Assembly (NCBI RefSeq): GCF_016097555.1
Contig: NC_054702.1
Span: 71,997,856 to 72,061,855, forward strand
Length of the DNA stretch: 64,000 bases
Source of the DNA: Gigantopelta aegis
Taxonomy: Eukaryota > Mollusca > Gastropoda > Neomphalida > Peltospiridae
Reading direction: 5' to 3'
This document shows positions 7,524-63,167 of the stretch, in pieces. A program made the position numbers and the translations under genes. The notes beneath the pieces were generated by a model, which did no database searches, had not been told where the DNA came from, and saw only the letters and a program-made list of their open reading frames with translations. Numbering within the stretch: position 1 is the first letter of the stretch; each line of letters opens with the position of its first letter.

Positions 7524-8018
7524 GTGAAAGGAAATCCCTTACCTGGTCGTCAAGGAGATGTAAACATTTGTGGCGGGAGAAGTTATTGTAGAGTTCCCTT
7601 GTGTTATTGATTAAATCGTGTATGTAATATAACGATGTGACATATATACTGTAGTACACGGAGGGGCATATGACAATAGTAACGGCATTACAAGATCAAG
7701 AAAGATAATACTGACATTATTTTTTTTAAATATTTCGACACTAACTGGTCTTTACCAAAGATACATGTAACCGTTCAAAACTGATATTTGCGACGACACA
7801 TTATTTTCACGCTTCGCCAATTTCGAACTTTCAATAGGTGTTGATCAGTAACCAGTTACAACTCGACCGAATGTGAACGGAACTACATATTATGTTAGCA
7901 GGCTGCATGATCCCAGTCATACATAATACCAATAAAAATGGCCTTATGGAATCTTTCAGTGGCAGCACATTGCAATTGTATACTATTTAATAACTTGTAG
8001 TAGTTTCTCCGACAAAAA
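7524..8018. other. Upstream region of the palmitoyltransferase gene
   Basis: Presumed promoter and 5' UTR of the minus-strand DHHC gene. No TATA box or other element could be assigned with confidence. Confidence 0.4.
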
Positions 8019-8534: not shown

Positions 8535-9398
8535 GTCCACCTAACCCGAGTACTATATACTCTTTGACAGTAAGAGAACTAAATGTCCGCCTTACTCTCT
8601 TACCGTCGGAGTACTCGGGCTACTCGTCCACCTAACCCGAGTACTATATACTCTGACAGGAGTAATGTCGGGCTACTCGTCCACCTAACCCGAGTACCCG
8701 ATATACTCTGACAGTAAGAGAACTAAATGTCCGCCTAGCTCTCTTACCGTCGGAGTACTCGGGCTACTCGTCCGCCTAACCCGAGTACTATATACTCCGA
8801 CAGTAAGAGAACTAAATGTCCGCCTAGCTCTCTTACCGTCGGAGTACTCGGGCTACTCGTCCACCTAACCCGAGTACTATATACTCCGACAGTAAGAGAA
8901 CTAAATGTCCGCCTAGCTCTCTTACCGTCGGAGTACTCTGGCTACTCGTCCACCTAACCCGAGTACTATATACTCCGACAGTAAGAGAACTAAATGTCCG
9001 CCTAGCTCTCTTACCGTCGGAGTACTCTGGCTACTCGTCCACCTAACCCGAGTACTATATACTCCGACAGTAAGAGAACTAAATGTCCGCCTAGCTCTCT
9101 TACCGTCGGAGTACTCTGGCTACTCGTCCACCTAACCCGAGTACTATATACTCCGACAGTAAGAGAACTAAATGTCCGCCTAGCTCTCTTACCGTCGGAG
9201 TACTCTGGCTACTCGTCCACCTAACCCGAGTACTATATACTCCGACAGTAAGAGAACTAAATGTCCGCCTAGCTCTCTTACCGTCGGAGTACTCTGGCTA
9301 CTCGTCCACCTAACCCGAGTACTATATACTCCGACAGTAAGAGAACTAAATGTCCGCCTAGCTCTCTTACCGTCGGAGTACTCGGGCTACTCATCCGC
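8535..9398. repeat. 89-bp hairpin-forming satellite array
   Basis: About ten tandem units. From the fifth CCTAACCCGAG motif (8864) the spacing is exactly 89 bp (8953, 9042, 9131, 9220, 9309). The first units are irregular (91, 53 and 91 bp). Each unit contains an arm with ACTCCGACAGTAAGAGA and a facing arm TCTCTTACCGTCGGAGT, so each can fold into a stem of roughly 23 bp with a TATATAC bulge in one arm. The later units are nearly identical, indicating recent homogenisation. Confidence 0.95.
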
Positions 9399-14972: not shown

Positions 14973-14978
14973 TTTATT
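14973..14978 (-). promoter_or_regulatory. Candidate polyadenylation signal of the F-box gene
   Basis: TTTATT on + is AATAAA on the minus strand, about 320 nt past the stop codon at 15295. It is the first clear canonical signal seen there; use is not demonstrated. Confidence 0.4.
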
Positions 14979-15294: not shown

Positions 15295-18200
15295 CTAAGA
15301 AGATCCATTTTTGGGCGAGTGAGGCACTACCTTAGTATTGAACACTCTTATTGAAACTTGAGGCAGAAGAACGCACAGTTTTTCTGTTAACTGAATAATA
15401 CTGATTCTCTCCGACAGAAGAACCATGTCAGAATTTTCTGCCTGGTTTCCACACTGTGGTAATATTGGAATATACTCCGTCTGTTTCTCTGTCCCCGAAC
15501 TGTCCGTGGACGTTTCACTGCTCACCACTCCCCACTCGAGATGTTTCAGGTTCTTCAGTTTCGACACAGCCATCAGTGTACTCGAGTTCACTGCCGCTGC
15601 CGCCTGAAAGTAAAATAAATACTGTATAAGTAATAACTGATAGTTTTGGTGGGACATACTGATCGCTTTTTCGTAAACACAGTTATTTTATGTTTGGCAG
15701 ATATTTAAATATCTGTTTCAATCATTATTATATTGTTTTACCCACTTAAAACACACATCACTCCAGTTTGTACATTTTTGAAACAAAATAGTTATTCCAT
15801 TTTCCGTATTATGAAAGATCGCAGGATAAATGAAATAACTGGTTGCTGTCTTAAGATACCGGCTTTATCCTGCTCGGGTCGAATAGAGCATAGACGTTCA
15901 ATACGAATAAGGAATTCTACTCGGCAAGCCTCGTGGAATTCCCCATTCTTACCTTCACAGGATGAAGCTGTTAACAATATTATTAAACTGTTCTTCTCTA
16001 CATCCATGTGTATGTGTTTATATTTGCTGTAAGAGAGTAATGAATCTTAGTTTAAGACATTCTGTATATCTGCCTGTAGTTGCATAACAAAGGACCAAAA
16101 ATATTATATTCAAAAGAAACAAAAGCTCTTCTTTTTCTACCTTGTGTTGAGTTTATATGTCAAGTAATCTTGCTCTAAACTGACAACTTTCTACTTACTT
16201 CGGTCGTCGTATCTGGCCAGATAACCAAAGTGTGCAACTTCTCCAGCTGACCAAGAGAGTTTTCAAACGTATCTGCAATCTGGAACATTATCAGTTCTAG
16301 AATCTCCAGGCTGAAAAAAACACAAGAATCTTTCCTTTTTATCATGCAATTTCGTGAGAACATTTACTCATGGTAACCAATTTCTGTTTATCAACTATAT
16401 AATTCTCATTAATTATTAATTTTCACAAAGAAAGAAAGAAATGTTTTATTTAATGACGCACTCAACACATTTTATTTATGGTTATATGGCGTCAGACATA
16501 TGGTTAAGGACCACACAGATTTTGAAAGGAAACCCGCTGTCGCCACTACATGGGCTACTCTTTCCAATTAGCAGCAAGGGATCTTTTATTTGCGCTTCCC
16601 ACAGGCAGGATAGCACAAACCATGGCCTTTGTTAAACCAGTTATGGATCACTGGTCGGTGCAAGTGGTTTACACCTACCCATTGAGCCTTGCGGACCACT
16701 CACTCAAGGTTTGGAGTCGGTATCTGGATTAAAAATCCCATGCCTCGACTGGGATCCAAACCCATTACCTACCAGCCTGTAGACCGATGGCCTAACCACG
16801 ACGCTGGTTTTTCACAAACAATACATTTACAATGTTACTACAGTTTTACCTGAAAAATATAACTTTCAGTTGAATTCTAAACACATAAAATAAAATATGT
16901 GTACTAAGTGTACTCACTTTTTCAGGTTTTGTAACATGTCTGCAAGTCCAATGTCTGGAATTTCTCCACCACATTCTAACCGCAATTTTGTGAGATTTGT
17001 CAGCCCACCAAGAATAAAGTATATCTATAAAAGAACAAAAACAGATTAAATGTCTAACTTCAGTGACATAATTATGAAATCTGGAAAGAAAATTAATTTT
17101 TCATCTAACAAGCAAAAATTGATTTCAGTTGTGAACATTATTTTAATGGCAGCACATAAACTTATCAAGTTTGTTTTGTTTTGTTTAACGAGAGCACTAG
17201 AGAACATTAATCATCAGCTATTCGATGTCAAACATTTGATCATTCTAACATGTAGTCATCAGAGGAAACCCTCTAAATTTTTCCATTAACAACAAGAGAT
17301 CTTTCATGTGCACTTTCCCACAGACACAAAAGCACATACCACAGCCTTTGCCAGTTGGGGTGCACTGGTTGGAATGAGAAAAAAAACAATCAGTTAAATG
17401 TATCCACCGAGGTTGTTCAATTCTGCGATGCAAGCAGTCAACCGGTCCGAGCTAAATTCCACCGCACATAAACGTAACAAGACCAACTGAATACTGCAAT
17501 GACTTGTTATAATGTGAGCATATTGAGGAACATGCAAAAAGATTTTTGTCATAGCCTTAAGTAAATTCTATCCTTGAAGTAGTTACTGGCTTTACCTCAG
17601 ATGACCAATTTGTACAATCTCCCAGTTCCAGCTCTGTGAGTTGGTTCATTTCTCGTAAAAAGTGGAATTCGTTGTCCGATACTGATCGCAGAGTGGTTAA
17701 AGACTGGAAAATAACAGATTGTATTCTTGTCACAAATCTGAAACAATTACGGGTAACTTGATAGGAATAAAATATACTGATAGTCTATATAACAAATCCA
17801 TCTGTTTATCAATTATTATTTTTAGTGTTTATTCAAGATTTGCAATGATAATATGAATTACAAACTTAACATTTTCAATCTCGAGAGATAGTTAACGTAT
17901 CAATAGATTTAAGTACTGCAAAATGAATCGGGTAGCCTTTTCAACATAAATTGTAATAAATGGCATTATCAGGTGAAGATGAAGATGGATATTGTAATCA
18001 GTTTAAAGCTCAACTGAGCCAACTATTAACTAATGTATAATTCTGTGTTTCTGAATATGCCAAAATTTATTAATATACCCAACTAAAACATTATTTAAAT
18101 TTGAGGTTAATTTACATATATTCTTATTGTTATACACACAACAATTAAATGCTTAAAATGTCTTAGTTGGTTGACACCAAATCTAACTGTTCTTAAAATT

Positions 18201-21200
18201 AAGGTACATATAGCAATTAGTTCTTAAAAATAAGTTATCTGGTAACTACCAAACTGAACTATCATTAAAATTATGCCAGTTATTTAAATGCTATGTATAA
18301 AAAACCTTAACTATGTAAATACCACAAGATCATGTTTTAGAATATAACAACACACACATACCAAGGAGACAAGGTGCTCAAGAGAACCGAGTTCAGTCAA
18401 GCCACCACTGAAGGAAAAGGTTGGCAAGGTGAGGCCACCGATTCCTCGTAGCTTGAGTTCTTTTAGCTGTTTGAGAGCTGCAAACTTGCCCATGTATGTC
18501 TTGCAGGGGGTACTCCTGAAAGCAAGAGGGAAATCAATTACAAAAAATATAAAGGAGAAACTGTCATGAAACAAAATGGCAGGCTGCAACTTTAACAGGA
18601 TTCTGTCCTGCGTATCCCTATTTTCAGTCGGAAGTGTATGATTATGAGATAGAATCTCAAAGTATTCATATTATACAATTTCTAGGATTCTGGTGCAATC
18701 CTAAAAATAAATCCTCAAATTCATTGATTGTTTTGTTTCACATATACTGTACAACAAAGTAAGGATAAAGCACTGGTCAAATTGAGCATCATTGGCCAAC
18801 AAGCCTTAGAGAACCAAAGAAGACTTGAATCCAGACAGCAATATTTACTAAGACAACCAAGACTCCAAATATAATGTGTATTGCACTGTAGCTTGAATAC
18901 AGTAATAGTTGTAGTTTAACATATACACAATTTCATTTAGTACAATAATCAAGGCTACTTCTTCACAAGATGAAGTTACACCGAGAGTCTTATGAAAAAA
19001 AAAAAAACCCATTAATTGTGAGTAGAAAAATGATTAATTACCACATTTGGTCTCCAGAAGCATCAGAAATAAATTCGGCTCGGAAGACTTCGAGTCCAGG
19101 GAGCTTTTCACACACCATATGAAGAACTGCCGCAGGGACAAGACCAAACTCTATCGTGGTCAGACCTGCCAGGTTATGTAAGTTGGACATCAAATTATGC
19201 CAGGTTTTGTTCCGGTCATCACTATGACACATGCCCATTAGACTCTGAATGACAGGAAAATTACAGAAAAGCCAGTTATCATTGTTTCCAATACACCAAG
19301 AGATAATTATATAGATTTTAAATACAAAATATAATATTTCATACATATGATTATGTACATATATACTTAAAGTTATAGCTTAGTAACAATTCTGAATAAA
19401 CCTGCAAATAATTATAGTTTTTAAACATAAATTTAAAAACAAGAATTCTGTGGAATTAAATGTCTCGGGTACCATACACGTTTTTGATGCACTGTTACAA
19501 ACATCCATAGATGCAGCTATAAACCAAGTTTCAAAGACCCAGGACTGCGAGAAGCTGACACCGTCGCCATTGCCACCACCATCAAAAATTAATACCTGTA
19601 TCTTGTATTTTTGACTTTGTAAAGGTGAGACCTTTTTTTAAAACACCATTTCTAATAAAATTGGCAACACTTCTTCTGATTAACAAATAAGGTTGCCGTA
19701 TATTATTTTTTCTCACAGATAGCAGTCTTTGATAAAACAGTCATAGAGCACTGGCTGGAATGGGAAATAACCCACTGCATTCAACAAAGTGAATTAACCT
19801 TACTGAGAGCTCTAAACACTGACCTACATCCTACTCTAACACAAGGATATTTATGATTTTAAATACAATTTCACAAATATCGCAATTATCCCAATTATAC
19901 ACGCTTACCAAACTTTCTAGTCTGACATTCTTGAAAAATGCTGTTGCTTTGTCCCAGTTAGTTATTGTTAATCCTCGTAATGATACTGTTCGCCACTATA
20001 AAATAAAGAACAGTAATAACTTGATATAATGAAAACAACAAATAACCAATATGTAAAATATTACTGTACCAAACCTTTATTACAATACAGTGTTTCTGCC
20101 AGAAAGAAATTTTTGGGTATAGCGCTATGGAATTGAATGCAACCACAGTCAACAGGGAGTATGAGGGGCATCCCCCTGAATGAAAATGGGTTAAGTTTAG
20201 GGTTAGGGTTAAGAAAATCAGACATTAATGATGAGAGTAATTAATTTTGTGAAAAAGTTAACTTTAAAAAAATTAAATTTGGGTATGGCACCATACCCGT
20301 TTTACCCTCTGGCAGAAACCCTGCAATAATATAACAAAATAAAATCCATTACAAAACATGTACAATATAGTAATTGTCAAATGGAGATGCTATTCATCGA
20401 CTTTAATATAGTCCACAATATATTTAATTTAATTATTAAATTCAGAATCAAAATGTATTTGTTGATTTTTGAAGGAAAACAAACTTCAAATGATATGGGA
20501 ACACGTTTGGGGGTTCTGTTCCCTGCAATAATCAGAACCCATAGGGAACTAGGTTTTTGTGGTACAATAATCGTTGTAATGCTGAATTATGTGACATGAT
20601 AATGCATAATGTAATTTCAGTGTCATGATTTTACTGACACATAACAGGAAATGATTAACGATTGTTTCAATGAAATCCAGAGGCCAGATATGTTTTTAAA
20701 AATTAAAATAAATCTAAAACAGATGTGAACCTCTGTAACAAAATAAATGATAGTTAACAGGTATGGAATAGGAATAACTCACCAAACAAGATTGCTTTGA
20801 TATTTGCTGCCATGTTCGACACACACAAGAAGCCCTGTACGAAAAAGAAACAAAAAGACTTCTTATTGTTATGCACAGTTCAATCTTAATATTCGTATTC
20901 TTCTCTCAAATGTTTCTGTTACATATTACCTTCATCCATTCATGAATTTATGCACAATTGTGCATGTAGTAACAATTCTTTCTACCAATTCATTAAAATA
21001 TTTCAAAGCAAAAAACAATTTGTAAGAAAATCTACCTTAATAAATCAGCCGTCTTCAGATACTTGAATATCTCCAACATACAGTCATAACCACCATACAG
21101 ACTTTTAATAAAACATGATGCTGGGTTAATACCCTTCTTCTTTCTTTCCTTTTTTGCTGAACCGGGGAAAGGTCTTTTGTTAGTTTCACTTTTCTCAACA

Positions 21201-24200
21201 CCAGTTCGTGAAGGAGTCTGTAACAGGGGCTCAGTCAGTTTGTTCACTTCAGGGTCGGTGTTATTCGACACAGTAACACTCAGTTTTTGATTGGGATCTG
21301 TTGGTAAGGGAAAAGTATTGGGAGGGAGTAGCACTTTCAAGCCATCAGCCGAGCCAATAACACAAGATGGGGGCACAACCACCTGTATGTTATTGATTTT
21401 CAATGCCAAAGGCTGAGAAAGTTTTAACCTTTTCGTCACTGCCTTGGGTAATGTCAGTAACTGTGCATTGAGTGGTATATCAGAGTTTGAACTTTTAGAA
21501 GTGAACACATTTGAAGACTGTGACGAGGGAATGTCCGATAACATAGACACTGGTGGTATTATCCCAGGAGCCAGAGTCAGACGTGGAGGAGCTGGCATGA
21601 TCTTTGACTGCAAAGTCTTAGATGGCGATGTCATATCGGCATTATTTGCTGAAAGTACTCCTGCACTAATTAAAGTGGGCAACGCTGGGACTGCACTGGA
21701 AATACTTGTACATGCTGCTGTGGAAATCAGTGCCGTGCTGTTCAGTCCTGTAGGTTTGTACAGTGATGAGACAGGAGACTGTATTCTCTTGTCGAGAGCA
21801 GTTCGTAAAGCACTTTTTGCACTGACCGACTCTGGTAACTGCAGTGCTGGTAAGTGAATGATACCAGGACTTGAAGCATGCTGTAATGATGGAATTAAAC
21901 CGTCCGATACCAAACCATTATTGGGTGTCAGTTTTAACGTGTATAATGATGGTGCTGGTGACATTGTGGAAGACTGGCTATGATATATCATCTGTACTGC
22001 CTGTGAGGCGACGTTCTGGATATTCATGGAAACCGACGTTTTGGGTGTCGACTGGCTGGCAATTCCATACAGTGCTGGGGATTTGTATTTAACTGTGGTT
22101 GGGACAGTGGATTTCTTTCCAATCTGAACACATATCTGAAATTAAAAAGTATTATGACTGGATATAAAATAAGCTTTTTCAAATCAGAGAAAAATTTAAA
22201 TAACTGCCTTTTAATAGATTTATGTTACAAGAACTTTCAATTATTATCAGCTTTCAAATGAAAAATGACATTGAGATCAAATTCAAGCAACGTATGATTT
22301 CTTATCCAAATAACATACTGTACATTCATGTCTACATTGATTCACAATCTACAGACTGATCAACAAAACACACGACTATTTTATGAACAGCAGTGTTCAT
22401 AAATAAACACCGTAAAGGTATTCTTGTCTATGGTCACTCTTACATTATTTAACATTTATTTTTCATTCCCAATTCTGAGATGCTAATGACTATTTAAATT
22501 AGCATGCATATAATACATGTATTAAGCATCACAATATTATCTTACATAGCAATAGAATTCACCGCCTCCTTGGAAATTGACACATTGTGGATGAAACAAA
22601 CATATGCAGCTAGCGCACTGTAGAGTGGGTGGTCTCCCTTCCAAACCAGGACAGGCTAACGTGCAAAGTTGATTGCTACTCAGTCCTTCAGTTGCCTCTC
22701 CTTCACTGAAATGAAAACATTAAAAAGTTAAGTTTGTTTTGTTTAAGAACACCTCTAGAGTACATTGATTTATTAATCATCAGCTATTGGATGAGAAACA
22801 TTTGGTAATTCTGACATATAGTCTTGGAGGAAATCTGCTACATTTTCCCCATTAGTAGTAAGAGATATTTTATATGCACCATCCCATAAACAGGATAGCA
22901 CATACCACAGCCTTTGATATACCAGTCATAGTGCACTGGCTGGAATGAGAAATAGCCCAATGGGCCGACTGACAGGGATCACTGAAATGAAATGCAGGTA
23001 CCTTGATGAGGATGCATGGATTTTACAAACAATCAGCTATACACATTGGGTTTGTTACAGTGAGGCCCATCTAGTATGCAATTTTAGACTTCTGATACTT
23101 ACAAAATATGTCACTAGTTTTACATTTACCTGAAGATGTAAAGCATTATATTTGATAAACAATAACATAGATAGGATTAAATTAACACATTGTCTCAAGC
23201 AATGGGATTCAGAAGAATATTGCATAGCCGTCACTAGTACTTAACAGGACAATAACTGTACTTGATATCTTCAGTTACTGTAGCAGATTTAGTGGAGAAC
23301 GAAGTACCATTTTAAACTTTACTGACGTCCTAATAACCGGGGCCCATATTTTTGAAGCTATCTTAACAGTATAACAGGATATTGTAAAACTATCATAGGC
23401 AATGGCATGTACCGTTGTGATGTCATAACTTACAATGGTTTAACGATATCGTAGTGCTAAGAAGTTTACAAAATCTCTAGCCTGAATGATTTTAGATGTA
23501 TTCCGATGCTTGTTCATTTTCAGATATTATTACTATGCATGTTTTATAATGAAGGTACCTGTTGTTTGGTGTCTTGCTCATTGCATCTGGTTTGAACTGT
23601 TTGGGCCGCGGAGTCGTACTTTTTCTCGCCACCATCTTCTTTCTGGGCAAGTCGTCACTCTCAGTGGGACTAGATGCAGTATTACTGTTCAGTAATGTGC
23701 TAATATTAAAGTCAATGGTCTGCTCCTGTTTAATCAACACCACATTTTTATTTGACGTAGTCACAGTTTTTGTGTCTTTAACTACAGACGGAGATGATGT
23801 TGACACCACTGTCAAGACTGGTGCCGGGGGCGACGACACATTTCGGACAACATCCAGAGATGGCAACGACACTTCATCAGAATCCCGCTCAATAATTACT
23901 TCCACGTCAGAAAACTTTGTCGCTGGGCGCGTTTTTGTCTCGATTACTTTTGGACTTTTGTTTTTGGGAGGACGTCCAGGGCGTCGACGTGGGACTCCCC
24001 CTGGCGTCACTTTGGGGCTCGTCTTCGACTTGCTCACAGGACTGGGACTGCCCTTCTTGGACGGTATACCCACTCTCCCAGCCTGTCGAACAAGTTCAAA
24101 TGGGGGCTTGTGAAGAACTCTTCTGGAGAAACTGAAGTTGTTCACTGTCAGTGGCGAATTTGTTGATTCCACTGAAAAAATAAAGTTCCATAAAATAATA

Positions 24201-27200
24201 AAATTTAAAATCATTAACAGGGTTGAAGCTGGATATAAAAAAGTAATACTAATTTGGCAAATAATTTGTTTTTACGTTAAAACTAAACAAAAGATCAAAT
24301 TAATGTGCTTTAAAGTACTAAAAGTATTTTATTTGTTAAATTAGCTTTTTGACAATATCATAACAAATGTTATTCACCAAATTCAACTTTAGTTGCATTT
24401 GATGATGATTTTGCAAATGGCAGCTTAAACCTTTCATAAAAACTGGAATAATAAAAAAATCGGTTTAAAGGTTGTCTTAAATTTCAAACTTATTTTCTTT
24501 GTAATGACAAATATATTAGTTTCAACTGAAATAAGAGAGTTCCAAAACAGTTATTTGTGAATGAAATCATATTTAAATGAGAAACTATTAAAAGTTATTT
24601 TAAACAAGAACTAAACTTACAAACAACTGATACAACATTCACCTAATCGAATGATAATTCAATATCAAAAACAGGACAAGGACATAATAAAAACGTTTTG
24701 CACAAATCTGAATGCCTTAAAATATGACTAAACCTCCTGATATACACTATCCATCTCAGCCATACCAACTCAACAATACATCTGATCTTAGCTTTAAATG
24801 AATAAAATCTGCATACTACCTAAAATCCATCTTTAAGTTAGTATGCAAGACATGACTGAGTGATACAAATATATAGTTTGCAGTTACATTGACCTACAAA
24901 TTAAATTCACCCATAAAACAAAAGCATTTTACTGATATTGAAGCAATATTCTATTCTGTTACGAATCAACAACCAGTAAGTGTCTGTATGCACATATATC
25001 CTGAAACAGTTGATTTCACTTACAGAATGTATGCCAAATGCAAAGTACTTACAATAATCAGCCACTTGAACCAGAGATCTCTGCAAATAGAAAGTACAGT
25101 ATATGAGCATTAATTTTATATAATTATTTACATTTCAGTTGATAAATTTACCTAAAAATTTTTCTTCTCACAAATGATATGCAACTAAACCAATATCAGA
25201 AATTTACCCAAGCATGTATACATGTACTACCATGACAATTAGCCACGTCAATCATTGTAAGACTGACTTTAAACTCCTCTGACACATTAACTGCAAAACT
25301 TCTGAGGAAAACATATTTTTTTTGCGGTGGCCTTTTTCTTTTTAATTGCCCGAGTTACATATGTATATTCATTATTAGTAATTTAAAATATCAGAATCCC
25401 CACCCAAATTAAAAAGAGTGGGCTGCAAAATCTACCATGAAGTAGTGAACTAGAAACCAAGACATAGTATTATTAACCTGGTCTAGCTGCAAAATAAACA
25501 ATACAGTGAAACCCCTCAAGACCCGACCCCCTCTAAACCGGAATCCCCTCAAAACCGGACGTTTTCCACGGTCCTGTGATGTACACATCTTTTAACACTA
25601 TATTTTACCCCTCTAAACCGGAAACCCCTCTAAACTGAACACCGGACAAACAATTCGGTCCCAATGTGTGAACTTAGTGTAAATCCTACCCCTGAAAACC
25701 GGACGATCAAACCGATACCAATCAATATGGTGCCCACCTGTCTGTGAACACCGATGGCTAGTGCAATATGTGCATGCTCGAGATCGCTGTTATCAGTGTA
25801 ATCACTGCTGCATACAGTACAGGTACCGCTCAGCAGGCAAGATTAGCAACTTGACAATAAACAATTAAAAGGACTGATCACAAGCTTTGGTATGGAGTTA
25901 ACTACTGTAAACACATTGATTGTGTTGTAATTATGGTTAACATTAGCGGAGTTCGGGTTTGGGTTAGATGTCGTTATTAAGTTACGAGTGTGTTTTAAGG
26001 TCTTAAATGTGATCCTTCACAAACATGTCTCATGACTTGCTTCAAAGATTGACACAACTGGGAATTTAATTTGCTGCCTTCCTATTGTGTGAATGTGTTG
26101 GGTTTTTTTAAAATGTTTGTTTAGCGAAATAAAGAGTAAGCAAAAGTATATGTTGGCTTTGCGTAGTCGAATAGATGTTAGTAGTGTTTCATTTTCATGT
26201 CGATTTTCAACGTCCATCTAAACGTCGCTGTGTTGAACTCTCGCTCAATGATGAACTCAAAATAATTAAAAGTTTCGAAAGTGTACCTAAACCAACGTTA
26301 AGATCTTTGAGTGAAAAGTTTAGTATTGGCAAATCAACAGTTGGAGATATCGGTGCTTGAAGACGATGATATTCCGTTATCACGACTAGCACGCAAACTC
26401 GTCACTGCCGACGTGGACACTAACATCTTGACCAGCTTCGACGATGACATGCCGATTGAAGACTGCACAAACGAGTTGGAGAGAGAACTAGTGGCCAACT
26501 TCCGTGGGGACGAAATACCCAATGAGAATGGCCAATACACCACAAATTGAAAATTTGAGTAAAATTCAGTATCTATCTGTGATATTTGCATTTTTGGACA
26601 GTTCTTTACACTGTGTTTTTATTTAAATCTTTTTATATTGATGTTGATCATCATTTGTTTGCATTACCATAGTTTGACACCCAATAGCCGATGTATTTTT
26701 CGTGCTGGGGTGTCGTTAAACATTCATTCATTCATTGTACCTTACTGACAACACACCTTGAAGCCACCATCAAAATGTTCAACATGAACTTAAACAAATC
26801 AAGTGAAAAGGGACATATACACCGTTTATTAAATAAATTTCAGTTGGTAAATCACCAGAAACATTCATACTCAACCCAAATATGTATTATTGGCAGTACT
26901 AAGTAAAGCAGGTGTGGGTGGGACTAGACCTCTGATAGTCATAGGGTTAGTTATTGTTTTTGAGGGGTTTCAAGCAGGTATGGGTGCCAAAACAAGAACT
27001 CTAACACCACCCCACAAGAAAACATTAAAGTATCACAATGCAATTCGCTATGCATGTTTCAGAGATCACTACACAATTTGAAAAGATTAAACAGTAGTTG
27101 CTAATCAATTTTCAACTGACTAGAAATATCACTAATCAAGATTTAGAAGAAAGAAGAAGAAACAAGAAGTTTGTTTTGCTTTTAAAACTGACACCACTAG

Positions 27201-30200
27201 AGCACATTGATTTATTAATCATCAGCTATTGGATATCAAATATCTGGTAATTTTGACATGTACGAGTCTTAGAGAGGAAACCCGCTACATTTTTCCATTA
27301 GTAGCAATGGATCTTTTACATGTACCATCCCACAGACAGGATAGCACATACCACGTCCTTTGATATGCCAATCTTGGTGAACTGGCTGAAACTAGAAATA
27401 GCCCAATGGGCCTACCGACGAGGATCAATCCTAGACCGACCACACATCAGGCATGCATTTTACCACTGGGCTACATCTTGGCCTTTGAAAACAAAATGTT
27501 CCCTAACAACCCTCATGCAGGAAATCCATGCACCTTGTTTCTTACTGACAAGACTTTAAAAACCTACCAGCTTTCTCCCTTCAGGTGCAAAGTAGTAGGT
27601 ATCACATGCAGTATTGCCAGTACTTCGGTAAACAAGCTCACGCATCCAGCCTTAAGAAATTGTAAAACAGGAATATATAATGATAACAAATACATTATGC
27701 TCCAATTATGTAAGTGATACAAATTTCAATTAAAACACAATTACATCTAATCTTGGGTGGACTTGACCAATATGTTGCACTGAGACATAATTGCTTGAAA
27801 AATATATATCGCTACAAGTCTTTGAACTATTTAAAATACCTTTTATTTGTATCTCAATGTTTGAACAAATATTTTTTTTTTTGGATTTTTGCCACAGAAA
27901 AAATGTTCACTTATGGTAATATGGACTCTGCCCATTAAACCAATAACCGTTGCAATAAATGAACACAAAAATAAAAACAAAAAATTATCCCTTCAACCTA
28001 AGGCAATAATTTTTATTTAGCGGCAAAAAAATTGCCAGATGTCAGTAAAGCCCTTGACCTATGGCAATTTGTATCAGAGTTACGACAACTATACAATAGA
28101 ATGTCACGCAGGAAAAATCAAATTAATTGATAACTTTATACGAAAATTAAATTACTGGCAATTTGCCAACACCATGATATTTTCTATTAATTTTATGAAT
28201 TTGGTTAAGAAGTCAATACAACATCTTAACCAAATTCACATCTAGGGTTTCTAATATCACCAGCAAAGTGGTGTAAATATTTACCATGTTTAAATGGTTC
28301 AAGAAGAGTTTCCAAGTCTGTTGTTACTACTGTACTTGTTCTACCTGTCAAATTTAAAAGAAACCATTTTACACAACATCAATTCAAAAGATATATTTAA
28401 CTATAGTTTGCAAGTGAAATTTTATATAACGTTTCCTAAGGTAAGTCTATTACATGCAGCAGGTAATAAACGTAATTTATAAACAATAAATACTGATTGG
28501 CCCTTTACACAGTTAAGATTCATTAACACATTCCTTGTCTATGTCAAGTTTTGCACAACCCATTTTTTGTTCCTGCTTTAAATTTAGTATTTACACTGTC
28601 ATGTCAAACGCAAAAAAAAAAAAAAAATAGGTTAGTTGAAATGTTTTTTGCATAATCCATAAATGAGGTACGTCTATTTTAAATTTGTATATTTAAATAC
28701 ATTTCATTCAGTTTTTAACTCGTTTATGTTATTAAGAGTCACTAACTATACGTAGAAATTAATTTTCTTAAAATAAATATATATATTTTTAATACACATC
28801 TGAAAGCCTGGTAAAAAGCATATATGACAGCACAATACTTAACCATATTAAAAACAATTAACAGATTAATAAGTAAATCTACATTACCTCTTCGTGGTGT
28901 ATCACTGTCGCCATCCAACTTTTTCGTCCGCTTAACTTCTGCGTCAATTTCTTCATCATTAGTCAAAAATTCCCCAAATGAAGCAGGCTTTTTTCTTTTT
29001 CTTCCAACCCCTGTCGTGACCTCAGTATCTTCACCAGAGTCAGCATCCAAGTCATTCAAAGATGCCTGAACCTCCATTTCTTTACTCTCCACAGTTTTAC
29101 TCTGGTCCTTCACACTACCATTTTCATCACCACTTTCCATGGCATCGTCATCAAATTTACCTCTGGAGTCTGTGTTAACGCTGTAATCTTCCGTCGTCTC
29201 ACTGCCCGTCTCCTGCCCATCGGCCGTAACAGTCTGTTCCTTATCATCACCTTTTTTTATTTCTCCAACTGTACTCTTTGTTTCACTATCTACTGGTTTT
29301 TCTGATGACAGTTTATCTGTCAAGCAATTATTGTTAGTTTCTGGGGATTTCTGTGAACTATCTCCTTCAAGTGAAGCATCAACTGCAGATTCAGGCATCG
29401 TTTCAGCATCAGATTCCGTCTTCTCTTGCGTCACCGGGCTAAGTAACAGTATCTGTTCATCATCAGATTCATTCTCGTTATCACTGGCATCACTTTCTTC
29501 AGGTTTGGTATTGTGGTCACTGATATTCCCAATCAAATTACCTGTACTGGATTCCTCATCTTCACTAACAGGCATGCTTATCTCCCCCTTATTGGAGCTC
29601 TCACCAGCAGTGTCACTGGCACATGCAACATATTTCTTAACAAAGTCATCATCTAATTTCTTACGACTGATTTTAACATGTAGGTTTACATCACCTTTGT
29701 TTACTTCCTTACTGTTTTCAGTAACACTCATGTTTTCTTCAACCACTTCACAGCTTTTAACATTTTCATTATCCACTATTTCACCGTCTTCTTCAGTTCC
29801 ATCCATGTGAACATCTGTTTTATTTTCTAACATGGTTTCTTTTGCATCAGTGTTATCCTCACCGTCCTCATCAACCAGCAACTTGTCATCCACATCATCA
29901 TCATCATCATCATCATCATCTTCTTCTTCTTCCATAGCACTGTTGTTCATATTTAACTCAGAGTTATTCTCTCCTATTTCTTCTTCTTCTAATTTAGCTT
30001 CATCTGCATCATTAGATTCCAAATCTGTAAAGCAATAAAATATTACCAAATCAAAAGTTCATAATATGCTGTAACTGTAAAAAAAATTACAAATTCAATA
30101 TATAAATCAAACACAAAACAACATTCAACATAACTACTATATTATTAGGGTTTAAGCTGGACATGCCAAACAATTTGGCGAATTTGAACATGAAATCTGT

Positions 30201-31088
30201 TGCCAAATTAAAGTAATATTTCGCTAAACACAAGTATATTTTTTAATTAGCTATACATATACAAACAACACTTTTTTCGAAGTAGCTTTTTGGTGAATTG
30301 TTAATAATATATTCACTAAATTAAACTTTAAATCACATTTGGCGATTTTGCAAACAACAGCTTAAACCACATTGTGATCAACATCACTCATTTTTTTGAA
30401 AACCTATCTTAAACAGATTCAGTTTTAAACTATTAATTTAATGTTATTTACTGTAAACAAACATGTACTGATCAAAAATTTATATTTGATAAAAACAAAA
30501 CAAAATTTAATCACAGCTACATGAGTAAGATTTATCAAATATTTATATTTATATGTAACAAGAATTGCATGGAATTAAATGTCACACATATCATACACCT
30601 TTTTGGTGCACATCCATAGATTCAACTATAGACCACAACAACGTATAGCTTGTGGATAACTGATCTCAACACGAAACTATAATGCGAAATTTGAATGCAA
30701 TAGTTGACACTGTTGCCACCACAGCCGAAAAGTAATATTTATATCTTGCCTTTTTACTTTGTAAAGGCGAGACAAAACCAGTATCAAAGAAAAGTGCACA
30801 AGAAAACATAAAAATCAGCACCAGTTACATGTACATGTAGCAATGTTAACAACAGACTGTATATTTCATGAACAGTAAACTGAATGACAATAACTAAACC
30901 TCACCAGCATCAAATTCTTGCCGACTTGAACTAGCTGTACAGTCTTCTGAGTTGTGTTCTTCAACCTCTATTGCATAGGCATGATCAGAAACACAGTTCT
31001 CGTTGAGTTCCAGCGAAGTACTCTCTTCACCCTTTCCGACAACACTGTCCGAGTCATCAGGGCCTGCATAGTTGTGATCGGCACTCAT
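15295..31088 (-). CDS. F-box/LRR protein with AT-hook and PHD-like finger, 13 exons
   Basis: Exons, 5' to 3': 31088-30905, 30024-28888, 24171-23559, 22705-22546, 22135-21036, 20834-20783, 19995-19909, 19244-19042, 18515-18362, 17703-17596, 17024-16918, 16310-16199, 15603-15295. Every junction is GT-AG and phases are continuous: 4326 nt, 1441 aa. The ATG has an in-frame TGA 18 nt upstream. Residues 62-440 are strongly acidic, with GRKRKKP near the end. An AT-hook (RRRPGRPPK) lies at about 502-510. A C4HC3 finger is at 659-700: C659, C663, C675, C678, H683, C686, C697, C700. Ser/Pro/Thr-rich sequence follows, with a basic KKERKKKG. The F-box is at about 1042-1090 (MLEIFKYLKTADLL, then VCRTWQQISKQSCLWRTVSL), and leucine-rich repeats fill about 1090-1441. 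F-boxes bind SKP1 in SCF ubiquitin ligases; LRRs usually hold the substrate. The AT-hook and finger suggest a nuclear, chromatin-bound role (inference). It resembles KDM2/FBXL19 in order but shows no JmjC or CXXC. I cannot name an orthologue. Confidence 0.88.
16430..16808 (-). mobile_element. Full-length SINE (GCCTCGGTGG-type head) with 10-bp target duplication
   Basis: Minus-strand copy in the last part of the F-box/LRR gene, in the intron between exons 11 and 12. TTTTCACAAA flanks it at 16420-16429 and 16809-16818. The body shows GCAAGGGATCTTTTATTTGC and the head region CCAGCCTGTAGACCGATGG. Confidence 0.9.
17170..17463 (-). mobile_element. tRNA-type SINE in F-box gene intron
   Basis: Minus-oriented copy in the intron between exons 10 and 11. 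The 3' end is GTTTTGTTTTGTTTAACGAG, with body AACAAGAGATCTTTCATGTG and a diverged head near 17440. Confidence 0.75.
19438..19632 (+). repeat. Dispersed repeat, copy 1 (AACAAGAATT...TAAAGGTGAGAC)
   Basis: Shares its start (AACAAGAATT, GGAATTAAATGTC), middle (CATCCATAGAT) and end (TTTGTAAAGGTGAGAC) with 30557-30774 in the same orientation. Both lie in introns of the F-box gene, and no inverted termini are visible. A degraded interspersed repeat of unknown type. Confidence 0.6.
19723..19840 (-). mobile_element. SINE fragment
   Basis: Only the central SINE body is recognisable (CTTTGATAAAACAGTC, AGAGCACTGGCTGGAATG), followed by a diverged head region near 19810-19840. Confidence 0.5.
20088..20323. 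mobile_element. CAG...CTG inverted-repeat element with 5-bp target duplication
   Basis: CAGTGTTTCTGCCAGA and the complement of its variant CAGGGTTTCTGCCAGA bound 236 bp. CAATA is duplicated at 20083-20087 and 20324-20328. Inside is a short TTTAGGGTTAGGGTT stretch. It lies in the intron between F-box exons 6 and 7. hAT5-like by termini and duplication length (inference). Confidence 0.8.
22731..22978 (-). mobile_element. SINE, truncated at the head, in F-box gene intron
   Basis: Minus copy just upstream of exon 4. It has the 3' end GTTTGTTTTGTTTAAGAAC and body TAGTAGTAAGAGATATTTTA, and reaches CCCAATGGGCCGACTGAC, where the head is lost. Confidence 0.8.
24220..24432. mobile_element. Inverted-repeat element GGGTTnAAGCTGG, copy 1
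   Basis: Opens GGGTTGAAGCTGGATA and closes TTTGCAAATGGCAGCTTAAACC. A second copy lies at 30148-30368, and both are in F-box gene introns. The interior includes short AATTTGGC/GCCAAATT-type segments and is non-coding. Confidence 0.65.
25504..26526 (+). mobile_element. Tigger/pogo transposon remnant, internally deleted
   Basis: Begins at a TA (25502-25503) with the pogo/Tigger-type end CAGTGAAACCCCTC, followed by several subterminal CCTCTAAACCGGA motifs. At 26211-26345 one frame encodes a CENP-B/Psq-type helix-turn-helix (LSLNDELKIIKSFE, then LSEKFSIGKSTVGDI). The C-terminal acidic part follows at once in another frame (LEDDDIPLSRLARKL, then DDDMPIEDC). The DDE catalytic core is absent, and the right end is lost where a SINE tail begins. 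It lies in the 4.7-kb intron between F-box exons 2 and 3. Non-autonomous. Confidence 0.85.
26527..26736 (+). mobile_element. SINE 3' portion with (ATTC)n tail
   Basis: Shares AATGGCCAATACA, CACAAATTG, GACAGTTCTTTACACTGTG and CACCCAATAGCCGATGTA with the minus-strand copy at 51477-51735. Ends in ATTCATTCATTCATT. It truncates the Tigger remnant, so it inserted later. Confidence 0.8.
27170..27485 (-). mobile_element. Full-length tRNA-type SINE in F-box gene intron
   Basis: Minus copy running from GTTTGTTTTGCTTTTAAAAC through AGCAATGGATCTTTTACATG and CCCAATGGGCCTACCGACG to the head CACTGGGCTACATCTTGGCC. Both the A-box and B-box regions can be seen. Confidence 0.85.
27944..28250. repeat. Dispersed repeat with GGCAAT/ATTGCC motifs, copy 1
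   Basis: The reverse complement of 27970-28030 resembles 44090-44160 (TTATTGCC, GAAGGnATAATTTTT, GTTTTTA). Multiple GGCAATTT/TTGCCA motifs recur within it. Ends are not defined. Confidence 0.45.
30148..30368. mobile_element. Inverted-repeat element GGGTTnAAGCTGG, copy 2
   Basis: Opens GGGTTTAAGCTGGACAT and closes GCAAACAACAGCTTAAACC. Same family as 24220-24432, here in F-box gene intron 1. Confidence 0.65.
30557..30774 (+). repeat. Dispersed repeat, copy 2 (AACAAGAATT...TAAAGGCGAGAC)
   Basis: Same family and orientation as 19438-19632, in F-box gene intron 1. Slightly longer, with extra sequence in the middle. Confidence 0.6.
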
Positions 31089-31698: not shown

Positions 31699-32142
31699 AA
31701 ATATGTATTTGTGAAGTTCAAACTGTGCAACGCACCGATATAAATTCAAAGACTTGTTTGTACAGTTAGTTTGCTCATAAAAATATTGCACCTCAGGTAG
31801 GGCTCAAATTTAATAGCGACCCTGCAGCAAATTATCACAGTACTCTAATCATATGCCCCAATGCCCTGAAAATTAGTCTCATGGCCAAATTGGCCGTGCA
31901 TTATTTTGCATGTTACTTTAGACTATGTGACAAATTTTGGAATGTACTTGTAAACAGCCGAAGCATTTAAAACACATTTTTAGTTTGCTGTAACCAGTCT
32001 GTTAAAGTAATCCTTACCCCCTCCAAAACTCCAAATATGCAGATAAGCATTTAATTAACAGATAAGCAAAGCAATGAAAAATGCACAACATATGTTGTCA
32101 AGTTATTGCTGTCCAAGAAATATTCACATGAAACAAAAGAAT

Positions 32143-32370: not shown

Positions 32371-33590
32371 AAAAAGAAAGAAATGTTTTATTTAACAATG
32401 CACTCAACACATTTTATTTACGGTTATATGGCGTCAGACATATGGTTACGGACCACACAGATTTTGAGAGGAAACCTGCTGTCGCCACGTCATGGGCTAC
32501 TCTTTCCGATTAGCAGCAAGGGATCTTTTATTTGCACTTCCCACAGGCAGGATAGTGCAAACCATGGCCTTTGTTGAACTAGTTATGGATCACTGGTCGG
32601 TGCAAGTGGTTTACACCTACCCATTGAGCCTTGCGGAGCACTCACTCAGGGTTTGGAGTCGGTATCTGGATTAAAAATCCCATGCCTCGACTGGGATCCG
32701 AACCCAGTACCTACCAGCCTGTAGACTGATGGCCTACCATGACGCCACCGAGGCCGGTTCATGTCGGTATATATGCTTGATGAAAAAAGTTTGTTTTATT
32801 TAACGATGCCGCTAGAGCACATTGATTTTTTATCTTATCATCGGCTATTGGACGTCAAACATATGGTCATTCTGACACTGGTTTTTTAGAGGAAACCCGC
32901 TGTCGCCACATAGGCTACTCTTTTTATGACAGGCAGCAAGGGATCTTTTATTTGCGCTTCCCACAGGCAGGATAGCACAAACCATGGCCTTTGTTGAACC
33001 AGTTATGGATCACTGGTCGGTGCAAGTGGTTTACACCTACCCATTGAGCCTTGCGGAGCACTCACTCAGGGTTTGGAGTCGGTATCTGGATTAAAAATCC
33101 CATGCCTCGACTGGGATCCGAACCCAGTACCTACCAGCCTGTAGACTGATGGCCTACCATGACGCCACCGAGGCCGGTTCATGTCGGTATATATGCTTGA
33201 TGAAAAAAGTTTGTTTTATTTAACGATGCCGCTAGAGCACATTGATTTTTTATCTTATCATCGGCTATTGGACGTCAAACATATGGTCATTCTGACACTG
33301 GTTTTTTAGAGGAAACCCGCTGTCGCCACATAGGCTACTCTTTTTACGACAGGCAGCAAGGGATCTTTTATTTGCGCTTCCCACAGGCAGGATAGCACAA
33401 ACCATGGCCTTTGTTGAACCAGTTATGGATCACTGGTCGGTGCAAGTGGTTTACACCTACCCATTGAGCCTTGCGGAGCACTCACTCAGGGTTTGGAGTC
33501 GGTATTTGGATTAAAAATCCCATGCCTCGACTGGGATCCGAACCCAGTACCTACCAGCCTGTAGACCGATGGCCTGCCACGACGCTGGTA
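32371..33590 (-). repeat. Three tandem SINEs, two of them in a 420-bp duplication
   Basis: Minus-oriented SINEs occupy about 32371-32760, 32788-33180 and 33208-33590. The block at 32761-33180 is repeated at 33181-33590 with period 420 bp and only a few differences. CATGTCGGTATAT flanks the block on the left and recurs at each junction, and TATATGCTTGATGAA closes the block on the right. This fits one insertion duplicated by unequal exchange between target duplications. The first copy has a different 3' end (ACTCAACACATTTTATTTA). Confidence 0.9.
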
Positions 33591-38000: not shown

Positions 38001-41000
38001 TATCTAATGAAATATATGGTAGTAGCTTTTTTATGTCAATCCATCTATATACTTTCCATCTGTCTGTCCATCCATTGATCGATTCTTCCACCTATCTATC
38101 CACCCATCCACCTACTCAACCCTTAGTCAATCACCCAGCACTCATCCCCTTCTATCCACCCATCTACCCATCCAAAGTCCTCCTTTTATCAATAAATCCA
38201 TCCATACATCCATACATCTATCCATCAGTTTAATGAATCAATCAATCAATCATAATAATTTATTTCATGGAAGTCATGTTGCAAATTTTAATATGCTTCA
38301 TTCATAATTAACTTTTTTTTTTTTCTTTTTTTTTTCATTGTGACTGATGACAAATTAAATTTATTCAGCTTATATCTACTGTGCTATGAATGCTGTGAAT
38401 GTAATTTCTTCTTAACAGGTCCTGGCATTTTAACGAAGGAGTTGTTTAGCAAGGGTGTGCACCATATTGTGGCAACAGATACCAAAGAACAACTTCTCTC
38501 TTTACTTGAGGTTTATACAATTTTACATAATTATATATACATATACTAAAACAAAAATTCTTCAAATTTTCATGTTACTGAGATGAATTTAGCAATGTTT
38601 TTTTGGAGAATAATAATTATTTTTTTGTAATTCATGTTGTTTCAAAATTATCCTTTGATACAAAATACAAATATTGAATTTACATTTCACAGCCAGTTTT
38701 TACAATACATGTTTAAGGCAGTCACAAGATATTTATGTAGTTTTTTCTTCTTCCTTTTTTAAATAGAGTATAACATTATTTTAATATTATTCTTAGCATA
38801 TGTCTTTTTATGGTATTCATTTTGTATTTCTACAGTGTTTATTCTTTATTTTATGGTATTCATTTTGTATTTCTACAGTGTTTATTCTTTATTTTATGGA
38901 GTGGGACGTAGCCCAGTGGTAAAGCATTCGTCTGATGCTCGGTTGGTCTAGGATCGATGTCTGTCGGCGGGCCCATTGGGCTATTTCTAGTTTCAGCCAG
39001 TGCCTCACGACTGGTAAATCAAAGACCATAGTATGTTCTATCCTGTCTGTGGGATGGTGCATATAAAAGATCCCTTGCTACCAATGGAAAACTGTAGCAG
39101 ATTTCCTCTCTAAGACTATATGTGAAAATTACCAAATGTTTGACATCCAGTAGCCGATGATTAATAAATTAATGTGTTTTAGTGGTATCGGTAAAACAAA
39201 CTTTTTTTTTGTTCTTTTGTTTTAAAAATAACTTATAACATTTTAATATTATTCTTTTATAGTACCCATTTTGCATCTTTATAGTGTTTGGGGTTTTTTT
39301 GGGTTTTTTTACTTTATTTTATTTCAGGTTCAGGATTAAATTTAGAAAAAAGAAGTTACATGACCATAAAGTGTTGTTTGTGTTATTAGAGAAATCTACA
39401 AAGAGAAATATCGCAGCACAAGTTACATTGCTTTCACTGGGATTGCTTCACCCTTTGGCATCGCGACACTAACAGTTCTCAGTTCGAGAAAGATTATAGA
39501 GACAAGGAAGTGGAAATTGTTGCAGCCTTTCAGCAGAAAACACATGGAGATGGTATTTGTGATTTACTAATAACTATAAAATGAAATCATCAATATTTGT
39601 TATTTTGTGTAAATTACATAACATTTTTATTAAATTTTTAAAAATTATTATTCACCATTCCCTGTTACAAAGGCCTGCCCCTGTTCAGGGTGAAAAATGG
39701 GGCAAGTGGTCAACTAGACCAGGAGCTCAAGATAACAACCAGGAAGAGCCCTCAGAAGATAACACATACATGTATAAGTATATATATATATATGTCTAAA
39801 ACTGGGGGTGTTTTTTTATAAAAAAATAAATAGGAATTCAAAAATGGGAAAGGTGATTTTTTATTTTGTTTAGCATTCATTCATTGCTAATGTTTTTGTT
39901 TTTTTAATACACACTCACACAAAACACAGATCATTCTTAATATTACACTTCCTCAATCTCCTGTCACTAAGAGCAAACATTTGTATATAAAAGAGTAAAT
40001 AATACATGAATGATCTGTTGGAAACAAAGTCAGCCCGAAGAGACGATAATTAATTGGACATTCTATTAAAAAGTGGAAACTACAATACACATCTATATTT
40101 AAACAAATGAAGGCTATTTTTTTGTTAATAGACTGATTGTTCTATTATATATCTATATTGAATTTCTTTTTTAAAATGTGTAAAGTTAAGATTTGATTTT
40201 TGTACTTTGCATTTATAAATATGAAATTTTGCAAATAACAATAAAAAAATCAAATGGTGCATCTGTTGTTACATGTTTTTTAACGCCAAGAATAATCAGT
40301 TCTTCAGAGAGTACAATTTGCCTTAATCCACTACATAAAATTTGACCAAAATTTGTTAACAATTTTACACTTCCAAAACAGATGTGACAAAGTTTCCCTT
40401 TCCCCAGAACAAAATTTACATTTCTCATCATTTCCTATATTTATAAAAAGGTGTTGTTTGTTAATATTCTATTTAATATTCTATATTGAAACGATCAGAG
40501 CTTAGTTTCCAAAGTTCTTTTAAAAGGTTTTACAAAAATGTTAGACCATTTGAATTCAGATCCAAATTGAGTTTCCCATTTTATTTTAGCCTTATCACCA
40601 ATGATTCCAAAACATAATAAAATTATTTTGTGCCTTTCTTCACAGAAAGCAGTTTACGTAAAACTGGAGTATCATGTAAAGATATATTAGTGTGTTTAGT
40701 CTTGAAATTCAGATCCTTAAGATATTGTTTACAAGCATGAATAACTCCAAAATAATCTAAAAAGGAGACATTAATAATTTAATATCGTACACATCTTCAA
40801 AAACTTCCAGAGAAAGAAATTCCCTATTCTCGTCATACATATCACAAACTTGTGCTATACTCTTCTGTAACCTGAAAAAGACTTAAAGACAATTCTAATA
40901 TTATTATTGAAGAATATGGGTTTTGACAGGTACTCTCTAAATTCTGTCACTTGTTTTTTCCCCACAAAATTACCATAAGCTATTAAACAATTTTTCCAAA

Positions 41001-47729: not shown

Positions 47730-47940
47730 TTATGGGTCGTGTAGGATCGTCCCCATCCATGGGCCTATTGGGCTATTTCTCCTTCTGCCCAGTGCTTCAC
47801 AACTGGTGTAACAAAGGCAATGGTATGTACTATCCTGTCTGTGGGATAAGGTATAAAAAAAATTGCTTGCTGCTAATTAATCGAAAAGTGTAGCCCATGG
47901 TGTGTAGGCAACAGGTTTCCTGTCTAATTATCTCTATACT
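47730..47940 (+). mobile_element. SINE without head, downstream of TFB2M
   Basis: Begins at the B-box-proximal region (GTAGGATCGTCCCCATCC) and runs through CCTATTGGGCTATTTCTCC and AACAGGTTTCCTGTC. Its 3' end feeds the tandem repeat that follows. Confidence 0.8.
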
Positions 47941-48371
47941 TCTTAACCATCTGTCTGACACCATACAACCGTAATTATTACAATGTCTTGAGTGCATTGT
48001 TAAATAAAATACTTCTTAACCATATGTCTGACACCATACAACCGTAATTATTACAATGTCTTGAGTGCATTGTTAAATAAAATACTTCTTATCCATATGT
48101 CTGACACCATACAACCGTAATTATTACAATGTCTTGAGTGCATTGTTAAATAAAATACTTCTTATCCATATGTCTGACACCATACAACCGTAATTATTAC
48201 AATGTCTTGAGTGCATTGTTAAATAAAATACTTCTTAACCATATGTCTGACACCATACAACCGTAATTATTACAATGTCTTGAGTGCATTGTTAAATAAA
48301 ATACTTCTTATCCATATGTCTGACACCATACAACCGTAATTATTATAATGTCTTAAATAAAATACTTCTTT
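47936..48371 (+). repeat. 73-bp tandem repeat grown from a SINE 3' end
   Basis: About six copies of a unit that starts ACTTCTTAACCATATGTCTG and ends GCATTGTTAAATAAAAT, i.e. the SINE tail. Two sub-variants, TTAACCAT and TTATCCAT, alternate among the copies. Confidence 0.93.
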
Positions 48372-60753: not shown

Positions 60754-61025
60754 ATTTCTTTTTATAACTTCTAAATTTCTAGCTTTAATACATCATGCAA
60801 AGCTTCTTCAGTGATCTCAAAGATCGCACTAACCTTGCATGTCTCAAAAATTAGAGTTAGTTCTTTAACTACTAGTATATACCAGTAGGTTCTAGGTTGA
60901 TCAGGCCTAAACCTTGTTAGAAGTCAAAGCATTCCCTTAACAATTAATTAGTCATATAAATAATCACTCAATTTTCTATTGCATGTTCTACAAAACATCA
61001 GATACTATAAAGCTTCATGTGTACC

Positions 61026-63165: not shown

Positions 63166-63167
63166 GA

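Follow-up and report, generated by a model that had tools for sequence, protein, structure and literature searches.

A gastropod gene predicted to join a methyl-CpG-binding domain to an F-box and leucine-rich repeats

Results

A 16-exon gene on the minus strand

A stretch of 64,000 nucleotides from the gastropod Gigantopelta aegis (RefSeq assembly GCF_016097555.1, contig NC_054702.1, positions 71,997,856 to 72,061,855 of the forward strand) was analyzed computationally; it is referred to below as the window, and positions are counted from its first letter. A gene for a candidate chromatin-directed F-box protein runs on its minus strand from 31088 to 15295. Splice sites and phase were traced from the ATG at 31088, resulting in 16 exons and a product of 1498 amino acids (aa). 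GT-AG borders were found at 15 of 15 introns, and the phase was continuous from the ATG to the stop codon at 15295. Because an in-frame stop lies five codons 5' of the ATG and an AATAAA (14973..14978, minus strand) lies about 320 nt 3' of the stop codon, both gene ends look complete. The gene is real and is best described by this one phase-continuous model. Its exons, its methyl-CpG-binding domain (MBD), F-box and leucine-rich repeats (LRRs), and their order can be read from the sequence: acidic region, MBD, AT-hook-like motif, PHD-like finger, F-box, LRRs. All features listed here are on the minus strand.

15295..31088, minus: complete coding region of 16 exons, 1498 aa (spliced model)
30905..31088, minus: exon 1, start codon and acidic N-terminus (spliced model, translation)
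28888..30024, minus: exon 2, extended acidic stretch of low complexity covering aa 62-440 (spliced model)
28285..28344, minus: exon 3, absent from the 13-exon model, MBD start, 60 nt (spliced model, Pfam)
27568..27650, minus: exon 4, absent from the 13-exon model, MBD core with GW, R469, D477 and Y479, 83 nt (Pfam, alignment, tblastn with MBD2)
25053..25080, minus: exon 5, absent from the 13-exon model, MBD with R489-S490, 28 nt (Pfam, alignment)
23559..24171, minus: exon 6, MBD end (aa 498-517) followed by a region rich in Ser/Pro/Lys that holds the AT-hook-like motif (spliced model, Pfam)
23963..23989, minus: AT-hook-like motif RRRPGRPPK, aa 559-567 (translation, by eye)
22546..22705, minus: exon 7, PHD-like C4HC3 finger starting at aa 716 (PHD profile of Pfam under its cut-off)
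21036..22135, minus: exon 8, last cysteine of the finger (C757), Ser/Pro/Thr-rich linker, basic stretch, F-box start (about 21094 downwards)
20783..20834, minus: exon 9, F-box (spliced model, Pfam)
19909..19995, minus: exon 10, F-box end and start of the LRR region (spliced model, Pfam)
19042..19244, minus: exon 11, LRR region
18362..18515, minus: exon 12, LRR region
17596..17703, minus: exon 13, LRR region
16918..17024, minus: exon 14, LRR region
16199..16310, minus: exon 15, LRR region
15295..15603, minus: exon 16, final LRR-type motif and C-terminal tail up to the stop codon

A previous sequence-only reading had described 13 exons and about 1441 aa without naming the strand. The continuous phase claimed for that model was borne out, whereas its exon count and length were not. 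Exons 3, 4, and 5 had been left out; together they measure 60 + 83 + 28 = 171 nt, i.e. 57 codons, which is exactly the gap between 1441 and 1498, and their phase agrees with that of exon 2 upstream and exon 6 downstream. The lengths of exon 3 (60 nt) and of exons 4 and 5 combined (111 nt) are divisible by three. The 13-exon model also reads through because omission of exon 3 and of exons 4 plus 5 preserves the frame, and isoforms of the gene lacking the MBD are therefore possible.

The majority of the splice sites scored well. The exceptions tell against the model: the acceptor of exon 4 was equaled by 31.0% of 870 other AGs in score, and for the exon 6 and exon 7 donors the figures were 23.2 and 18.6% of 1056 other GTs, respectively. 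Codon usage was likewise of no help to the added exons: among 1000 length-matched open stretches of intron, 120, 108, and 151 did as well as exons 3, 4, and 5, respectively; exons 7 and 9, both part of the 13-exon model, performed worse (486 and 490 of 1000). This test gave values for exons 1-15; for exons 2, 6, and 8, the introns offered no open stretch of the same length for comparison. Because codon usage cannot tell exons 3-5 from intron stretches, these exons rest on homology and phase. The exon joins of the model as a whole are predicted from splicing signals, homology, and phase.

The weak donor of exon 6 bears on the question of whether two adjacent genes were wrongly joined, one with MBD and AT-hook-like motif (exons 1-6) and one with finger, F-box, and LRRs (exons 7-16). 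The MBD-AT-hook and finger-F-box joins lie within exons because exon 6 and exon 8 each span both parts; the exon 6-7 junction is the sole join between the DNA-binding and F-box halves that is not bridged by a domain or an exon. In addition, intron 6 contains one AATAAA. This hexamer, however, was present in 8 of the 15 introns, so that the copy in intron 6 means little. Furthermore, the acceptor of exon 7 is strong (only 1.4% of 870 other AGs equal it) and its phase matches, and no methionine precedes the finger in the open frame of this exon, although other exons were not searched for a start. A false joining of two genes is very unlikely.

Repetitive DNA was noted in two introns. Intron 4 carries a 17-bp tandem run (25512-25560) followed by open stretches to 26560 that, by eye, resemble a mobile-element remnant. 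In intron 14, the stretch at about 16440-16810 appeared by eye to be related to a 420-bp unit present in 2.7 copies at 32462-33585. ARAGORN reported tRNA-like structures of unknown type at 32683-32754 and 33103-33174, suggesting a tRNA-derived short interspersed element.

Exons 3 to 6 encode an MBD

The Pfam MBD family (PF01429) matched aa 453-517 at E 1.5e-14, with 53.8 bits versus a cut-off of 21. The match spans exons 3, 4, and 5 and the beginning of exon 6. Among solved structures, the region matched BAZ2B (E 3.7e-7), MBD2 (E 2e-6), MBD1, BAZ2A, MBD3, MeCP2, MBD4, and others. As a check independent of exon choice, tblastn was run on the raw window. Human MBD2 retrieved exon 4 at E 1.7e-5, and at E 8.6e-6 once composition was corrected for. 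BAZ2B retrieved the same exon at E 0.017 and 0.021, and the domain end in exon 6 at E 9.4, which is not significant. As judged by these homologies, exons 3-5 plus the start of exon 6 encode a methyl-CpG-binding domain. The bacterial and archaeal library NCBIfam gave nothing for the MBD region or the F-box/LRR region, as expected.

Seven Pfam families were listed at E <= 1 for the whole protein, and neither the MBD2/3 C-terminal domain (PF14048) nor the glycosylase, CXXC, SET, or DDT/bromodomain parts of MBD4, MBD1, SETDB, and BAZ2 were among them. Thus, the protein shares with the MBD family (MeCP2, MBD1-MBD4, BAZ2A/B, SETDB1/2, and MBD5/6) an MBD above the Pfam cut-off but differs from it in that the effector domains of those proteins were not seen among the seven.

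The MBD is likely to bind methyl-CpG

The MBD was aligned with those of human MBD2, MBD3, MBD1, MeCP2, and BAZ2B, and eight columns were compared in MBD2 numbering. These columns are taken as DNA contacts, for four of the residues on the published basis given below. The window protein is equal to MBD2 at six of the eight (R166, D176, Y178, R188, S189, and Q192) and has threonine in place of S168. For comparison, MBD3 has H and F at the K174 and Y178 columns, and BAZ2B has E, A, and Q at the D176, Y178, and S189 columns. Overall identities were low and roughly even: 23/62 with MBD2, 25/68 with BAZ2B, 22/64 with MBD1, 21/63 with MBD3, and 21/65 with MeCP2.

Several points weigh against recognition of methyl-CpG. 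A loop of the MBD is two residues shorter, and the lysine or arginine at MBD2 K174 is lost in the resulting gap. The lost column matches one of four residues (R14, K22, Y26, and R36) called essential in MBD2/3 of Biomphalaria glabrata (PMC5433704): their spacing is that of R166, K174, Y178, and R188, so the window protein keeps three of the four and lacks the equivalent of K22. Furthermore, the top solved-structure match, BAZ2B, is no methyl-CpG reader; its MBD is described in a review as unable to bind methylated oligonucleotides (PMC6579900). Because six of eight columns equal MBD2 but the K174 position is lost, binding of methyl-CpG by this domain is likely, not certain.

The same data could be read as an MBD without methyl-CpG preference that serves as a DNA or protein module, with targeting via unmethylated or AT-rich DNA. 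MBDs lacking such a preference are described for BAZ2, MBD5, and MBD6. Consistent with this would be the first rank of BAZ2B among the structures, an identity to BAZ2B level with that to MBD2, the lost K174 position, and an AT-hook-like motif nearby. On the other hand, the R, D, Y, R, and S positions are kept, and BAZ2B differs at D, Y, and S. We consider this explanation unlikely.

The observed/expected ratio of CpG was 0.53 in the window, 0.55 in the coding sequence, and 0.52 in the introns, and TG (1.24) and CA (1.26) were raised in the window. CpG depletion together with raised TG and CA fits a CpG-methylated genome but is no proof of it, as other causes are possible.

Acidic region, AT-hook-like motif, and PHD-like finger

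Residues 1-440 consist of 30% D/E. The AT-hook-like motif RRRPGRPPK is encoded in exon 6, the same exon as the MBD end, and was picked by eye; an AT-hook is defined by a GRP core with basic residues on both sides. A C4HC3 finger occupies aa 716-757. All eight ligands are present, the first pair being C-x3-C, and the last cysteine is contributed by exon 8.

The profile searches count against both elements. Pfam listed no AT-hook in the whole protein and no family at all in a 104-aa piece holding the motif. The Pfam PHD profile reached 13.2 bits versus a cut-off of 24 (E 0.092) when the finger was scanned alone and was not listed at E <= 1 in the whole-protein scan. Similarity of the finger to solved structures was weak, with a best E of 0.14 (SHPRH). 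Because the Pfam PHD score is below the cut-off, the finger is called PHD-like only.

An F-box followed by LRRs

The F-box was recognized by two Pfam families, F-box-like PF12937 (41.7 bits versus 24.3, E 1e-10) and PF00646 (36.2 bits versus 20.5). When the C-terminal 382 aa were scanned alone, LRR_14 scored 41.5 bits versus 40 and LRR_Zer-1 scored 30.1 versus 27. In the whole protein, LRR_14 reached only 33.1 bits versus the cut-off of 40 and LRR_Zer-1 was also below its cut-off, which speaks against the assignment. An LRR-type pattern, LxxLx[LIVFW], occurs 10 times in aa 1147-1430, compared with a mean of 2.5 in shuffled sequences; none of 5000 shuffles reached 10. Thus, the sequence-only reading was right about the acidic region, the C4HC3 finger, the F-box, and the LRRs, and its AT-hook survives as a motif picked by eye; by profile, the F-box is above cut-off, the LRRs are so in the C-terminal 382 aa only, and the PHD finger is not.

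With a 409-aa query covering F-box and LRRs, the matches included SKP2 (E 1.7e-4), FBXL3 (E 6.2e-4), and, in sixth place, KDM2B (E 0.0016). The KDM2B match extended over 218 residues of F-box plus LRRs and was longer than those of SKP2 and FBXL3. A 222-aa query gave SKP2 at E 2.1e-5, FBXL3 at E 2.7e-4, and KDM2B tenth at E 0.035. By these scores, SKP2 and FBXL3 lie nearest to the F-box/LRR part, with KDM2B not far behind. The F-box followed by LRRs is an arrangement that the window protein has in common with FBXL proteins such as SKP2 and FBXL3, and binding of SKP1 and CUL1 is predicted from this homology. SKP2 and FBXL3 act in SKP1-CUL1-F-box (SCF) ubiquitin ligases. FBXL proteins such as these are not known to contain an MBD, an AT-hook, or a finger.

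Relation to KDM2 and FBXL19

The order of finger, F-box, and LRRs is also that of the KDM2/FBXL19 proteins. The sequence-only reading had pointed this out and had seen no JmjC or CXXC domain; a JmjC or CXXC domain in missed exons was named there as evidence against it. Missed exons were indeed found, but the domain in them is the MBD. The CXXC pattern C..C..C.{3,6}C..C..C had no match in six frames of the window, although a motif split by an intron could escape it. A CXXC-PHD probe from KDM2A gave a best E of 0.19, or 0.53 with composition correction, which is noise level. One of the two matches at E 0.19 was that of the exon 7 finger to the KDM2A PHD finger; it was not listed at E <= 1 with correction. 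A 16-residue match of the CXXC probe at 31927-31974 (minus strand), 5' of exon 1, had E 0.25, with three cysteines in register and a stop soon after, and it dropped out with correction. The best match of a KDM2/7-type JmjC probe had E 0.58 and a stop inside; it, too, was not listed at E <= 1 with correction. JmjC or CXXC domains in missed exons were thus rejected at the sensitivity of the tblastn probes and the six-frame cysteine pattern, and the observation that neither is visible held.

KDM2A is a CXXC protein with a JmjC domain, and FBXL19 is described as closely resembling KDM2A and KDM2B except that it lacks JmjC (PMC3685328). KDM2A, KDM2B, and FBXL19 resemble the window protein, with its PHD-like finger, in combining a CpG-directed DNA-binding domain (CXXC, PMC3685328) with a PHD finger, an F-box, and LRRs (F-box and LRRs of FBXL19, PMC5997449). 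They differ from it in carrying CXXC for unmethylated CpG and, in the long forms of KDM2A/B, JmjC, whereas the window protein has an MBD, and CXXC and JmjC were not detected in it. Moreover, the spacing of its finger differs from that of KDM2/FBXL19, and, by search scores, its F-box/LRR part is not closest to KDM2B.

The likeness invoked the idea that the gene descends from KDM2/FBXL19 by loss of CXXC (and JmjC) and gain of an MBD. The like order of finger, F-box, and LRRs, the long KDM2B match with the 409-aa query, and the weak, uncorrected match of the KDM2A PHD probe to exon 7, gone with composition correction, are in its favor. Given that no CXXC pattern was seen in six frames, that the JmjC and CXXC probes stayed at noise level, and that SKP2 and FBXL3 outscore KDM2B, such a descent is very improbable. 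A KDM2-like relative that had lost both domains, the alternative offered by the sequence-only reading, accordingly has little support. The layout appears to mirror that of KDM2/FBXL19 with an MBD in place of CXXC, a likeness that may be convergent. A chromatin-directed F-box protein other than KDM2, as originally proposed, stands in outline; the proposed DNA target changes from AT-rich DNA to methyl-CpG because the missed exons carry an MBD.

Other methylation readers and published surveys

UHRF1 and UHRF2 likewise unite a reader of methylated DNA, a PHD finger, and ubiquitin ligase function in one protein. They use an SRA domain for hemimethylated DNA and a RING of their own (PMC6579900), whereas the window protein has an MBD, a PHD-like finger, and an F-box for which SKP1-CUL1 would be required. 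The word F-box is missing from the main text of the same review of the MBD family (PMC6579900) and occurs 0 times in the main text of four papers on invertebrate methylation (PMC11292947, PMC11050768, PMC8330077, and PMC5433704). A fusion of MBD and F-box was not found in the full-text literature, covered by titles and abstract starts and mostly excluding subscription papers, which is weak evidence of absence. Automatic database annotations of such an architecture may well exist.

For a genome of 916 Mb, a size that we assume here, the tblastn E of 1.7e-5 obtained in 64 kb scales to about 0.24. Because the MBD is cut into short exons and the scaled E is of this order, tBLASTn surveys could pass over the gene. 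Annelid MBDs were assigned to MBD1/2/3 and MBD4 groups (PMC11292947, PMC8330077), a single MBD protein was found by tBLASTn in B. glabrata (PMC5433704), and MBD2 and MBD2/3 are named as readers in a gastropod review (PMC11050768). Surveys of the methylation toolkit may have missed the gene through the splitting of its MBD into exons of 60, 83, and 28 nt, or the gene is perhaps absent from the surveyed species.

Other features of the window

A long open frame at 6525-7538 (minus strand) has a DHHC palmitoyltransferase domain (Pfam E 9.8e-27), and an exon-like open frame at 981-1232 (plus strand) has a UBX domain (Pfam E 8.6e-18). The stretch at 62878-63204 (minus strand) is integrase-like (rve, E 1.2e-4, 22.7 bits versus a cut-off of 32.6) and is probably part of a retrotransposon; the adjoining open frame at 62361-62777 (minus strand) had no Pfam match. 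The open frame at 38292-38546 (plus strand) may resemble a mitochondrial rRNA dimethyladenosine transferase; its sole Pfam match, Herpes_HEPA, was below cut-off (E 0.0027, 18.6 bits versus 25). Tandem arrays with 94-98% matches lie at 8671-9396 (89 bp), 41789-42727 (70 bp), 47936-48354 (73 bp), and 60173-60755 (29 bp). Rfam gave nothing at gathering thresholds.

Discussion

We propose, with a probability of about one half, that the gene encodes a nuclear F-box/LRR protein whose MBD, aided by the AT-hook-like motif and the PHD-like finger, would bring it to methylated CpG as an SCF receptor, such that ubiquitin is placed onto proteins there. Anchoring to DNA, preferably methylated DNA, would fall to the MBD and the AT-hook-like motif. 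The PHD-like finger may read a histone tail or a partner. The F-box would bind SKP1 and thereby CUL1-RBX1, the LRRs would hold the target, putatively a chromatin protein, and ubiquitin would be attached to proteins sitting on methylated DNA. Methyl-CpG binding, SKP1 binding, and the nuclear location are carried over from homologs in this proposal; substrate and outcome are conjecture.

FBXL19 binds SKP1, but its purification yielded no detectable CUL1 or RBX1/2; its F-box is needed for binding of CDK-Mediator, which it brings to CpG islands (PMC5997449). Because of this precedent, ubiquitylation as the end result is uncertain. The protein might instead be a recruiter bound to methylated DNA without ubiquitin ligase function, in which F-box and SKP1 form a scaffold that brings in a transcription or repression complex. 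KDM2B similarly links PRC1 to CpG islands (PMC3524939). The window protein is built in a similar way, with a DNA reader, a finger, an F-box, and LRRs. Against a recruiter stands the proximity of its F-box part to SKP2 and FBXL3, which are members of SCF ligases, with KDM2B not far behind. This explanation appears rather doubtful to us.

The proposal of an SCF receptor directed to methylated CpG matters because few readers of invertebrate DNA methylation are known. In most invertebrates, it is located on highly transcribed genes, as stated in one of the surveys (PMC11292947). More tentatively than the function itself, we suggest that the gene could represent an undescribed animal family, in which a methyl-CpG reader and an SCF receptor are united and which would turn invertebrate gene-body or transposon methylation into local ubiquitylation, as a counterpart of KDM2/FBXL19. 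If true, an MBD/F-box protein would directly link methylated DNA to the control, through ubiquitin, of proteins bound there, and would form a counterpart to the CXXC-F-box proteins at unmethylated CpG.

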